From Candidatus Hydrogenedentota bacterium (GTDB lineage: Bacteria; Hydrogenedentota; Hydrogenedentia; Hydrogenedentales; CAITNO01), in NCBI GenBank assembly GCA_903902895.1, contig CAIUWO010000435.1:1-41098 (forward strand): 41,098 nucleotides of DNA, given 5' to 3'. Shown here in pieces: positions 8,189-12,081 of the stretch. The first letter of the stretch is position 1; each line of letters opens with the position of its first letter. Made by a program: the position numbers and the translations under genes. The notes below the pieces were generated by a model. The model had not been told where the DNA came from. It worked only from the letters and a program-made list of their open reading frames with translations, and searched no databases.

Positions 8189-9109
8189 TTAGTTCTGTTT
8201 CTGGACATATTTGTCCAGAAAACTTTCGACCAGGCCCGCCAAGTCCTTGCCGTCGACATTAATGTCCCACACGCCGTGTCCCGCCTCTTTCACGGGGTAG
8301 TAGACGTTGGGGATGCCGTTCTTTTCGCAGGCCGCTTTGATGGTTTCGGCGGGCATCAGTGACAGGCCCACGGTGAAGTCTTTGCCGCCGTGCACGGTCA
8401 TAATGGGCGGGTCGCCCGGGCTGAACAACTCCAGAAACAGGTCTGCCATGCCCCAGAGGTTCACGATGGCCTTCGGTTTGGGCGTGACCCCGGGATGGTT
8501 CATTTCGGGCACGGGCAGACCCGGCAGGTCACAGGCAAACTGGTCCGGGTCCGAGAGCCCGGCACCCAGCGCCGTGATGGCCCCGGCGCTCTCGCCGCCG
8601 ATGACGATGCGGTTACGGTCCACGCCCAGGGACGCCGCGTGCGCCTGCACGTGGCGCAGCAGGACCTTGGCGTCCACGATGGCCGCGTGTCCGGCGGCCT
8701 TGAGCGGGTCCGGCGCGTAGGGCTCCGGCGCGGGCGGAAACTCGCCCGACAGCCGGTAGTTCATGACAAAGCACACGATGCCCCGGCGCGCCAGCGCGCA
8801 GGCCAGCGCCTGGATATGCCCCTCCCCCTTGTCGCCGCCCTCAAAGGAACCGCCGTGGATCAGCACCAGTCCCATGCGGGGCTGCAGCGCCTTGCCGCGG
8901 GGCGCGACTAGATCGAATTTCAGGTCGCGCAGCTCGTACTGCCCCACCGCGCCCGGCTTTTGCACATAGCCCCGCCCGTACACCACATCGCGCTCCACCC
9001 GGTACGCCATGCGCGGCCAGTCAAAGGCCGTGGACCCGGCGCACCAAAGCGCCAGCAGAAGCGCCAGCGCCGCCGGGGAGAGCCGCCGAATTGTCGCCGT
9101 TGTCATCAT
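8189..9109 (-). CDS. Exported alpha/beta-hydrolase, esterase/carboxylesterase type
   Basis: This 306-aa hydrolase probably cleaves carboxylic esters outside the cytoplasm, perhaps acetyl groups on glycans given the sugar-related genes nearby (inference). The track ORF runs to 10690, but that extension is the antisense of the terminase-like gene. The ATG at 9109 has GGAG about 11 nt upstream and opens a signal peptide (basic RR, then LSPAALALLLALWCAGSTA). The oxyanion motif HGG is at 85-87, the nucleophile elbow GGESAG has Ser174, and the likely acid and base are Asp244 (VHGGKDFT) and His278 (EAGHGVW). HGG and GESAG resemble the hormone-sensitive lipase/BD-FAE esterase group. It is divergent from the terminase-like gene with a gap of 102 nt. 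Confidence 0.87.
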   Translation of the reverse strand: MMTTATIRRLSPAALALLLALWCAGSTAFDWPRMAYRVERDVVYGRGYVQKPGAVGQYELRDLKFDLVAPRGKALQPRMGLVLIHGGSFEGGDKGEGHIQALACALARRGIVCFVMNYRLSGEFPPAPEPYAPDPLKAAGHAAIVDAKVLLRHVQAHAASLGVDRNRIVIGGESAGAITALGAGLSDPDQFACDLPGLPVPEMNHPGVTPKPKAIVNLWGMADLFLELFSPGDPPIMTVHGGKDFTVGLSLMPAETIKAACEKNGIPNVYYPVKEAGHGVWDINVDGKDLAGLVESFLDKYVQKQN

Positions 9110-9211
9110 GTCAGGTACCGCTCCATATTCCGGATAACAATACTCCGTTGGCCCCAACGGTTCCCAACCCCCGCATATTTCTGCGCACCCGCAGTCCAGG
9201 AGGCATCCCCC

Positions 9212-10687
9212 ATGAACCCGGACCGAATTCGCCGTCATCTTCAGCGCCGCGGCGCCAACCCCGAATGCCGGGACTATTGGGCGGCCCTTGCCTGCCGCGA
9301 GGAGTTTGTGCGCCGGCACTTTGCCGCGCCCGGCGGCGCGCCCTGGCGGGTGCGCGGCTACCAGCGCGGCTCGCTGGAGTCGCGCGCCCCGCGCAAGGTC
9401 CACTGCGACGGCCGCGACGTGGGCAAGACCACCGAAATCGAGATTACCGCCTGCTGGGCCGCGCTGGCCTGCCCCGGAACGGAAATGCTCATCGGCACCC
9501 AGTGCGAGAACCACCTCTACCCGCTCATGCACCGGCTCTGCCGCCGCTTCGAGACCATTCCCCAGTTGGCCTCGTCCATGGTCGAAATGCGGCGCACCCC
9601 GTCCTGGCATTTCCGCTTCTCCAACGGCTTCACGCTGTGGGGCCGCATCGCCGGGCCGCGCGGCGTCAATTTCCAGGGCATGCACGTGGACTGGCAGATT
9701 GTCGATGAGGCGCAGGAACTGACCGAAACTGCCTGGGCCGAAATGTTTCAGGCGCTCAACGCGGGCGGCCGCCGCTGGGTCTACGGCGTGCCCAACGGCC
9801 TGCGCAACAGCTTCCACCGCATGACGCAGGACCGCGGCGCCGACCAGTACAACTGGCCCTCCACCATCCATCCCGACTACACGCCCGAAAAGGACGCCGA
9901 ACTGGCCCGGCTCTACGGCGGCAAGGATTCGCCCGGCTACATCCACCGCGTGCTGGGCCTGCACGGCGAGCCCGCCCGCGCGGTCTTCTCGCTCGACGAC
10001 TACCTGGCCTGCGTCGACCCCGCCCTGACAACCGACTCCATTGTGCTGCGCGGCGACGACCCCTTCGACCCGCCCTGCCCCGATCAGACCGGCCGCCACT
10101 ACCTCGGCTGCGACCTCGGCTACGCCCGCGACCCCTCCGAGTTCGTCGTCTACCGCGACGCGCCGCCCCATCTGATCAACCTGCTTCGCGTGCGCCTCGA
10201 AGGCGTCAACTACGCCCGGCAGGAGGACATCATTGTCGCCCTCGACCGCGCATGGGGCTTCGCCGCCATCGGCATCGATGCGGGCAACAACGGCCGCGCC
10301 GTGACCCACCGGCTCATGACCCGCGGTCCCGAATGGTGCGCCAAGGTGCACGCCTTCGAGTTCGGTTCCGTCATCGACGCGGGCATCCTGCCCGACGGCA
10401 CCCCCGCCCGCCGCCGCACCAAGGAATTCATGACCGACCTGCTGCGCACCCGCATGGCCGAGCGTACCCTCGTCTTCCCCGCGCTGCCCGACCGCGAAAG
10501 CGAGTACGCCTCCCACACCTGCACCGTCGACGCCCAGGGCCGCATCCGCTACGACAAGGGCGACGACCACCTCATCGACGCCGACCGCTGCGCGCTGCTG
10601 GTGCATTACCTCGACACCGCCGAGCCCGCCCCCGGCCCCGCAGTGATGCCGCCGCTGGTGTTGCCGTTTCGATTTCCGGGAAAATGA
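9212..10687 (+). CDS. Orphan phage terminase large-subunit-like ATPase/nuclease
   Basis: In phages and gene-transfer agents this family packages DNA with an N-terminal ATPase motor and a C-terminal RNase H-like nuclease. This protein has 491 aa, close to the usual length. Its ATG (9212) has AGGAGG 8 nt upstream. The track start at 8960 is an overextension. Walker A is GRDVGKTT (67-74) and Walker B is WQIVDEAQE (161-169, D165/E166). The nuclease half offers LGCDLGYARDPS (D301), IGIDAGNN (D356) and YDKGDDHLIDAD (D448-D458), the spacing expected of a terminase_6-type nuclease triad. All motifs look intact and the frame is open, so it should be functional. No portal, protease, capsid, small terminase, tail or integrase gene is nearby. 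It is preceded by the divergent esterase and followed by the hairpin array. It could be a relic, a domesticated motor or a misplaced phage gene. Confidence 0.8.
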   Translation: MNPDRIRRHLQRRGANPECRDYWAALACREEFVRRHFAAPGGAPWRVRGYQRGSLESRAPRKVHCDGRDVGKTTEIEITACWAALACPGTEMLIGTQCENHLYPLMHRLCRRFETIPQLASSMVEMRRTPSWHFRFSNGFTLWGRIAGPRGVNFQGMHVDWQIVDEAQELTETAWAEMFQALNAGGRRWVYGVPNGLRNSFHRMTQDRGADQYNWPSTIHPDYTPEKDAELARLYGGKDSPGYIHRVLGLHGEPARAVFSLDDYLACVDPALTTDSIVLRGDDPFDPPCPDQTGRHYLGCDLGYARDPSEFVVYRDAPPHLINLLRVRLEGVNYARQEDIIVALDRAWGFAAIGIDAGNNGRAVTHRLMTRGPEWCAKVHAFEFGSVIDAGILPDGTPARRRTKEFMTDLLRTRMAERTLVFPALPDRESEYASHTCTVDAQGRIRYDKGDDHLIDADRCALLVHYLDTAEPAPGPAVMPPLVLPFRFPGK

Positions 10688-10789
10688 CAAGGACGGAAAG
10701 CCCTATTTTTGTGCGGTGGCATGGCCCCGGCGAAGAAAAGCGGCGGCACGGCCGCGCGCACTCAAAAGAAGACCGCCGCCGTCTTCAAT

Positions 10790-11182
10790 CCCCCTTCGAA
10801 GACAGGGAGGATAGAAGTCGGCAGTGCATTCTATCAGCCCGCTTTAGCGGGCTCCTCTTTGCCCCCGGCTTCAGCCGGGGGGTACAAAAGGGGTGACCGT
10901 ATAAGAACAGCACGCTTTAGCGCGCTTTCAGGAGGCTTTAGCCAAGTCTCGGCGGAAAGAAGGGCTGAAGCCTTGAAAAAGCACGCTGAAGCGCGCTGGA
11001 AAACCGGGAAAGGAGACCTCTTCCATGCCCCCCGGCTGAAGCCGGGGGCAAAGAGGAGCCGGCTGAAGCCGGCTGAAAAGCAAGCACGATCAGGGGCATG
11101 GCTGAGAAACAGGTACTTCCAACCCTCCGGATTGATAGTCCCTCTTCAAACCGACTACTGTCCTCCCTGTCTTCGAAGAGGG
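10790..11182. repeat. Nested palindromic element: four hairpin types mirrored around a centre, inside 32-bp inverted repeats
   Basis: Eight small hairpins occur in the order H1 H2 H3 H4 / H4' H3' H2' H1'. H1 is 10836-10853, H2 10862-10881, H3 10910-10925, H4 10934-10943, H4' 10963-10972, H3' 10981-10996, H2' 11029-11048 and H1' 11057-11074. Left copies have TTTA or TTCA at the loop and right copies TGAA, so the right half is the reverse complement of the left. Outer arms 10790-10821 and 11151-11182 match at about 29 of 32 positions. H1 (AGCCCGCTTTAGCGGGCT) and H1' differ in both stem arms yet still pair. This fits a REPIN-like or MITE-like composite. No transposase is near and no coding frame is credible here. 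Confidence 0.8.
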
Positions 11183-11247
11183 CAACCTCGCCGTATGCGG
11201 GGCGGGGGATGGTGCGCTCCGTTCCGCTTCGTGGAACTTCGAGCACC

Positions 11248-12081
11248 CTACCGCATCGCCGCCTGCAGGCCCATCTGGATCAAATTCACATTGCACACCA
11301 ACTGCACGCCGAATATCAGCGTCAGCACCAGCACCACCCAGTTGAACGCCGACTCGGACACATGGTCGTGCATCCACTTGCCGGTGAAGGAACCAATGGG
11401 CACGAGCGGCGACAGCACGAGCGCGAACAGGATCACCTTCCAGTTGATCAGGCCGATGATGCAGTAGAAGGGGAACTTGGTGCCGTTGATGAGCGCGAAG
11501 GTCCAGGCCACGGTGCCGGTGAACATCGTTTTGCCGAGGTGCTGCGAGAACATGAACAGGCTCACAATCGGCCCGGCCGCGTGGATGAGCGTTGAGGTGA
11601 ACCCCGCCGCGACGCCGCAGGCCACGCCCACCCCCGTGCCCGCCTTGTGCTTCTCCACCCACTGCATCGACATTTCCTTGGCCAGGATATAGAGTGCGAA
11701 GATGACCGCGAGCACGCCGGTCGGCACCTTGATCCACACGCCATACTGCTCCACGCCCGCCTTGCCCACCACATACCAGATGACCAGCGCCGGGATGGTG
11801 CCGACCAGCGACGGAATGAAGATGAGCATGACCAGCCGCCACACCTTGTTGCGCCAGTGGTGGTATATGGCGTTCATGTCGCAGAGAATCAGGATCGGCA
11901 GCAGCGTGCCCGCCACCTTGTCCACGGGCATGACCAGCATAAGCAGCGGCAGCGACAGAATGCCCGCGCCCCCGGCAAAGCCGGACTTGCTGATGCCCTG
12001 GATGATCACGGACACGGAGCAGAACAGCCAGAACAGCGCCGGCGGCACGCCGGGCAGAATGAAGTCGGAAAACCAGAGCAT
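11248..12081 (-). CDS. TSUP (TauE/SafE) family membrane permease
   Basis: This 277-aa, very hydrophobic protein has about 8 predicted membrane segments in two similar halves, as usual for TSUP. The first half contains the glycine-rich SKSGFAGGAGILSLPLL and the second the corresponding AAGFTSTLIHAAGPIVSLFMF. Family members export or import small sulfur or carbon anions such as sulfite, sulfoacetate or similar compounds across the inner membrane. The substrate cannot be told here. The ATG has AAGGA about 7 nt upstream and the length is typical. The overlapping 509-aa track ORF is in a shifted frame and is rejected. It is divergent from the hybrid kinase gene, so that kinase might control it, but no direct evidence exists. 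Confidence 0.9.
   Translation of the reverse strand: MLWFSDFILPGVPPALFWLFCSVSVIIQGISKSGFAGGAGILSLPLLMLVMPVDKVAGTLLPILILCDMNAIYHHWRNKVWRLVMLIFIPSLVGTIPALVIWYVVGKAGVEQYGVWIKVPTGVLAVIFALYILAKEMSMQWVEKHKAGTGVGVACGVAAGFTSTLIHAAGPIVSLFMFSQHLGKTMFTGTVAWTFALINGTKFPFYCIIGLINWKVILFALVLSPLVPIGSFTGKWMHDHVSESAFNWVVLVLTLIFGVQLVCNVNLIQMGLQAAMR

Follow-up and report, generated by a model that had tools for sequence, protein, structure and literature searches.

Positions 10834–11076 of the window, the whole 41,098-nt stretch of DNA that was analysed from an uncultured Hydrogenedentota bacterium, comprise a 243-base mirrored hairpin array with the order H1-H2-H3-H4/H4'-H3'-H2'-H1'. This core is very probably the gene-less miniature of a Y1 transposon whose inverted ends carry four hairpins each, and it would later have been captured in a second mobile unit, MITE-A. 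We favour reading the window copy as a non-autonomous derivative of that transposon, comparable to a REPIN. A preliminary description of this DNA, which saw a structured mobile element here, is supported by the copies of the array, by the covariation of their stems and by an HUH transposase gene lying between the same arrays in other genomes. It is confirmed in part: there are two nested mobile units, with the hairpin core inside MITE-A.

Architecture and conservation of the hairpin array

The mirrored order described previously can be read directly, as eight hairpins, at positions 10836–11074 (Table 1). Loops in the window copy are TTTA or TTCA on the left and TGAA on the right, and alignment of H1 plus H2 with H2' plus H1' (61 nt) shows 87% complementarity. 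As had been reported, H1 and H1' differ in both arms with pairing kept (AGCCCGC/GCGGGCT versus AGCCGGC/GCCGGCT). The same rule was claimed for H3 and H3' and does not hold within the window copy, where the two stems are identical on one strand, each with one A·C mismatch; H3 does covary between copies, although its two versions are identical here.

Table 1. Features of the hairpin core and of the enclosing MITE-A, in window coordinates.
Feature	Position	Strand	Description
Core element	10834–11076	.	Mirrored eight-hairpin array, TC/AGCC...GGCT/GA ends; basis: own-genome BLAST copies, covariance-model matches, same ends around Y1 genes
H1	10836–10853	.	AGCCCGC-TTTA-GCGGGCT, stem 7 bp, loop TTTA
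Linker H1/H2	10854–10861	.	CCTCTTTG; best-conserved unpaired stretch, CTTT invariant in 60 half-modules
H2	10862–10882	.	8 bp, one bulged G on 3' arm, loop TTCA
H3	10909–10926	.	7 bp, one A·C mismatch in window copy (bulge in other genomes), loop TTTA
H4	10934–10943	.	GGCTTTAGCC; adjoins transposase gene in full elements
Centre, H4 to H4'	10944–10962	.	Transposase gene occupies same position in full elements (L060, L115, L135, L136, L138, L141)
H4'	10963–10972	.	GGCTGAAGCC
H3'	10980–10997	.	Loop TGAA, one A·C mismatch
H2'	11028–11048	.	Bulged C on 5' arm, mirror of H2
Linker H2'/H1'	11049–11056	.	CAAAGAGG, mirror of CCTCTTTG
H1'	11057–11074	.	AGCCGGC-TGAA-GCCGGCT
MITE-A	10802–11170	.	Separate TIR-bounded unit carrying hairpin element; basis: same TIR/TSD unit in C472 vs ten empty palindromes
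MITE-A left TIR	10802–10821	+	ACAGGGAGGATAGAAGTCGG
MITE-A right TIR	11151–11170	-	Reverse complement ACAGGGAGGACAGTAGTCGG
Target-site duplication, left copy	10794–10801	.	8 bp, CTTCGAAG, centre of target palindrome CCCC-CTTCGAAG-AGGG
Target-site duplication, right copy	11171–11178	.	8 bp, CTTCGAAG

Each strand folds far better than its shuffles, with folding-energy z-scores of -13.2 for the + strand as DNA and -11.7 for the - strand, and 0 of 200 shuffles were as good. Because of these z-scores, the lack of an equal among the shuffles and the many copies of the array, the hairpins are not a product of chance. In the minimum-energy fold of either strand, the left and right halves pair with each other as a single long hairpin. 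The small hairpins belong to a different fold and are not side branches of this one, and the long cruciform with side hairpins proposed earlier is not the minimum-energy structure.

BLAST located array copies at nine places in the window's own genome. When 85,462 species were scanned for an exact pattern, the H1-linker-H2 block turned up in Ca. Sumerlaeota, Ca. Hydrogenedentota and Ca. Electryonea. Outside the window's genome the hairpin order is the same and the array often complete. Relatives of the window within Hydrogenedentota lie on one contig from its genus (L063, genome G004) and one from its order (L061, genome G058). With two mismatches allowed, the pattern matched 6 of the 68 genomes of Hydrogenedentota; the reversed-pattern control gave no match in 68 genomes. 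A covariance model of the half-module (R1), run on 20 genomes, matched in 16, giving 16 matches in the window's genome and 2–73 in each of the other 15, and none in G039, G046, G067 or G034. Nine of the R1-positive genomes took no part in model building, and the positive hosts belong to Hydrogenedentota, Sumerlaeota and Ca. Electryonea. No array copies were present in the phage and plasmid records searched.

The stems of these copies covary. Across 60 half-modules, 99.6% of H2 cells are paired, as against 85.6 ± 0.9% in shuffles, and sliding the partner by 1–3 columns lowers pairing to 33–56%. Five of the eight H2 pairs show changes on both sides (47 double-change cells, no one-sided change), and all 61 half-modules compared carry the bulged G of the 3' arm; H1 and H3 covary too. 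The preliminary description had set out that, if other copies were lacking and stems failed to covary, the pairing would be chance or a one-off duplication; with copies many and stems covarying, that objection clearly fails. None of the 480 H2 cells is G-U (G-T), which fits DNA rather than RNA, or one arm correcting the other. Template switching can alter both arms of a palindrome together, and would mimic selection for pairing.

Covarying stems, together with one terminator-like hairpin (H3, - strand), are also what might be seen in a structured non-coding or regulatory RNA, such as a terminator, attenuator or sRNA, under selection for its fold. We regard this second option of the preliminary description as very unlikely: no Rfam family matched at the gathering score, and the best match at a relaxed threshold fell far under the cut-off; a promoter-like site was not found; 47 double changes in H2 with no G-U in 480 cells are unusual for RNA; and the copies are near-symmetric, occupy unrelated contexts and frame transposase genes.

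Two short stretches beside the element, 10711–10786 and 11205–11251, have matches at dozens of sites across the genus's three genomes; these are dispersed repeats of about 50–60 bp, CATGGCCCCGGCGAAGAAAAGCGGCGGCA... and GGATGGTGCGCTCCG...CGAGCACC. A long ORF to the left (8960–10687, +) resembles by eye a phage terminase large subunit and is a candidate for one.

A Y1/HUH transposase clade and its hairpin arrays

At locus L060 in Ca. Sumerlaeota, a gene for a 156-aa Y1 transposase lies exactly between H4 and H4'. Its product matches Pfam Y1_Tnp (4.5e-18), the NCBIfam IS200/IS605 model (61.9 bits) and solved IS200-type transposases, and the genes of this clade that are flanked by arrays encode HUH/Y1 (IS200-like) transposases of 146–156 aa. 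The sole strong homologue among the 68 Hydrogenedentota genomes, found in G040 with 63% identity, likewise sits between two arrays (L115), and a truncated transposase copy in Electryonea has kept its right array.

The association was put to a prediction test, in which the phylum Sumerlaeota was searched by protein alone and the flanks of the seven further homologues recovered were then checked for hairpins. L135, L136, L138 and L141 carry at least two correctly oriented TTYA/TRAA hairpins per side, in arrays that are complete or nearly so; L139 has two hairpins on one side and one on the other, L140 has a single hairpin, part of an array on one side, and L137, at a contig start, has no hairpins of its own. 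Correctly oriented hairpins thus accompany nine of ten clade members, L137 being the exception, and none of 22 other Y1 genes from the same genomes has two such hairpins on a side. The ten transposases form one clade with 100/100 support. His60, His62, Tyr119 and Gln123 are invariant in nine aligned members; of the clade motif Y---Q--HH, the Tyr, Gln and second His are invariant in the alignment, and most members have HH. Gene-bearing copies number only 1–2 per genome, gene-less copies many. AlphaFold, run on the transposase as a single sequence, gave a model with a mean pLDDT of 49.7, which was left out of the conclusions.

At three loci (L115, at about 903–919; L138; L141) H4 lies directly against the beginning of the transposase gene or runs into it, where it could mask the ribosome-binding site and limit translation.

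The preliminary description had advised looking in the genome for a RAYT or other HUH transposase. Such an HUH gene does lie between the same hairpin arrays in other genomes, and none does so in the window's own, where 13 Y1 genes were found, none with such hairpins and the best 29% identical to the clade. In this assembly (94.7% complete, 1056 contigs) the clade transposase may be unassembled or may have been lost, or the copies may be fossils. Viral contigs yielded no clade transposase, and plasmids only transposases of 27–31% identity. Another orphan population occurs in G109, which has 31 half-modules and no clade transposase at 1e-20.

Comparison with described Y1 systems and a proposed mechanism

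REPINs are the nearest functional parallel (PMC3116915). Like the REPIN/REPtron system with TnpA-REP (RAYT), the present one has inverted hairpin arrays, some of them bulged, and gene-less dispersed copies (PMC3116915, PMC6006769, PMC8266576), and its low-copy HUH/Y1 gene is flanked by the same hairpins as the gene-less copies. The biochemistry of TnpA-REP supplies reasons why bulges, loops and feet matter (PMC8266576). An inverted hairpin array, dispersed non-autonomous copies and a low-copy transposase might even suggest a classical REP/REPIN of a RAYT (TnpA-REP, class 2) system (PMC3116915, PMC8266576), but we consider this highly improbable. The GT[AG]G tetranucleotide is absent from the hairpin feet, the transposase has Y---Q--HH instead of Y---NP, and the NCBIfam RAYT model (REP_Tyr_transpos, cut-off 80) gives no match or 18.6 bits, as against 54.7–61.9 bits with the IS200/IS605 model (cut-off 55); the transposase falls outside class 2. 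The present ends also differ in having four distinct hairpins in fixed order with the conserved CCTCTTTG linker, and the gene lies at the centre of the mirrored array.

With IS200/IS605 (TnpA subclass 1.1, IS608, ISDra2) the present system shares a short Y1/HUH transposase, subterminal hairpins and the lack of an observed target duplication; scores against NCBIfam transpos_IS200 (cut-off 55) are 61.9, 58.0 and 54.7 bits, the third member falling just under. It differs in its ends, which have four hairpins each and mirror one another in inverted orientation (TTYA loops on the left, TRAA loops on the right), and in that 1–2 gene-bearing copies per genome stand against many gene-less ones. In IS608, both ends are recognised on the same strand. 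Same-orientation end hairpins on a transferred strand, as in IS200/IS605, were not found here, where loops and bulges are mirrored. Since the left TTYA and right TRAA loops and the mirrored bulges are unlike IS608, the standard IS200 pathway is not transferable unchanged.

The transposase clade resembles subclass 1.2 but forms its own 100/100 clade. The likeness extends to the motifs DH[VI]H or THVH, WQ and Y---Q--HH, a length of about 148 aa and low copy number (PMC6006769). Quentin et al. (2018) reported the Y---Q--HH, WQ proteins of subclass 1.2 as having no hairpins or REPs and a specific C-terminal domain (PMC6006769), whereas the present clade has elaborate hairpin ends. The tail F-EEFR-FLK---IEYDERY, which other Y---Q--HH proteins from the same genomes possess, is absent from the clade. 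TnpA-Y1 class 3, from Planctomycetes and Acidobacteria, has several atypical multicopy hairpins around the gene and is described as standing between IS and REPtron (PMC6006769). Several multicopy hairpins around the gene are common to both, but the W[TA] and YV--EQ motifs and the CnGA foot of class 3 are not seen here (PMC6006769). The open-access papers searched contained no account of an IS or REP repeat whose inverted ends have four hairpins, so the novelty of such ends is provisional. The palindrome-associated transposable elements (PATEs) of Haloquadratum, palindromic by name and reportedly described alongside IS200 and MITEs in one paper, are a lead only.

We suggest tentatively that these elements could represent a separate Y1/HUH system between IS200 and REPtrons: a transposase branch beside the supposedly hairpin-less subclass 1.2 that would read four different bulged hairpins, set in fixed order at inverted ends, and would move mirrored palindromes of 210–255 bp as wholes in trans in at least three phyla, with a genome-specific foot as cleavage guide. 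The findings supply hairpins and a probable mobile form for a Y1 branch whose neighbour, subclass 1.2, was reported without any. The occurrence of four-hairpin inverted ends across phyla raises the question of how a small HUH dimer that reads one strand uses mirror-image ends, and the linker, fixed bulge, loops and genome-specific foot are ready substrates for testing an IS200-type to REPIN-type transition.

Core copies start with T[CT]AGC and finish with GCT[AG]A, the hairpin feet being TYAGC preceded by genome-specific bases. Each genome has fixed bases immediately outside the core at both ends: position -1 is C at 25 of 26 ends in G088 and at 16 of 17 in G068, and position -2 is T at 10 of 11 ends in G000. 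These bases may be a guide or cleavage sequence, with the counts inflated by the shared ancestry of some flanks. The flanks of 25 core copies show no target duplication (direct repeats averaging 4.12 nt, versus 3.94 nt in cross-pairs).

We propose that the full form consists of H1-H2-H3-H4, the Y1-HUH transposase gene and H4'-H3'-H2'-H1'. Its transposase most likely works on single-stranded DNA, the lagging-strand template, where it would bind the small bulged hairpins and use its tyrosine to nick beside the H1 feet, so that the unit may be moved or copied with no target duplication, like those of TnpA-IS200 and TnpA-REP. The miniature would have kept both four-hairpin ends and lost the gene, and could therefore move only with a transposase supplied in trans, the role that RAYTs are thought to play for REPINs. 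Against this scheme stand the lack of a close transposase in the window's own genome and in G109 (31 half-modules) and of an empty site for the hairpin core: none was found in sister genomes, where the side genes lie on different contigs and homology ends before or beyond the element.

The enclosing MITE-A

The 32-nt outer repeats of the preliminary description (10790–10821 and 11151–11182) are present, with 29 of 32 positions (91%) complementary, and belong to a separate transposon rather than to the hairpin element. Each combines target palindrome and 8-bp duplication with the 20-bp TIR of a DDE-type MITE, here MITE-A, whose TIR sequence ACAGGGAGGACAGAAGTCGG goes with the 8-bp duplication. 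The assignment follows from the occurrence of empty target palindromes in the same genome: the palindrome CCCCCTTTGAAGGGGG is found, intact or nearly so, at ten places inside another dispersed repeat, and in C472 the composite splits it (CCCC-CTTTGAAG / ACAGGGAGGACAAAAGTCGG ... CCGATTTCTGTCCCTAGCAT / CTTTGAAG-AGGGG). The outer unit thus has the TIRs, fixed-length duplication and empty sites of a DDE-type MITE. The window's genome holds five composite copies of MITE-A plus array; MITE-A, with its 20-bp TIRs, would have captured one miniature there and spread these five composites into CCCCCTTYGAAGGGGG palindromes, duplicating 8 bp of the target. On this reading, MITEs that use one transposition chemistry carry mini-elements that use another.

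Outer inverted repeats were also considered as a general part of the hairpin element and rejected: only 8 of 31 copies exceed the 99% level of cross-pairs, mostly with differing sequences, because copies sit within other repeats or TIR elements.

Given the TIRs, 8-bp duplication and empty sites of MITE-A and an array common to five composites, the whole of 10794–11178 might be taken for a plain MITE of a DDE transposon with the array as its meaningless interior. This is scarcely credible: four further hairpin copies in the same genome (C251, C793, C859 and C617), like all those seen in other genomes, lie outside MITE-A TIRs; the TIR and duplication of MITE-A also occur in a 177-bp MITE (L246, L251) that has no hairpins; and arrays frame Y1 transposases in three phyla. 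Extremely unlikely, too, is an inert inverted duplication, kept palindromic through template switching and with no dedicated transposase, which would suit the both-arm changes, the absence of one-sided intermediates and the failure to find a clade transposase in the window's genome, but not the conservation of linker, loop type, fixed bulge and hairpin order across phyla or the success of the protein-to-hairpin prediction. The miniature of a Y1 transposon remains the preferred reading of the core.

The landing site of MITE-A, the CCCCCTTTGAAGGGGG palindrome, is internal to a further unit, MITE-B (TIR AGGGCAATCGCATTAAA; L247–L257 in G000), on contigs C520, C883, C462, C956, C581, C268, C214, C342, C660, C362 and C472, and on C472 mobile elements are nested three deep. 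In G040, four hairpin copies (L206–L209) have common flanks out to a GTCTGTCGATTTA inverted repeat, and there, too, a different TIR unit has apparently taken up the hairpin element.
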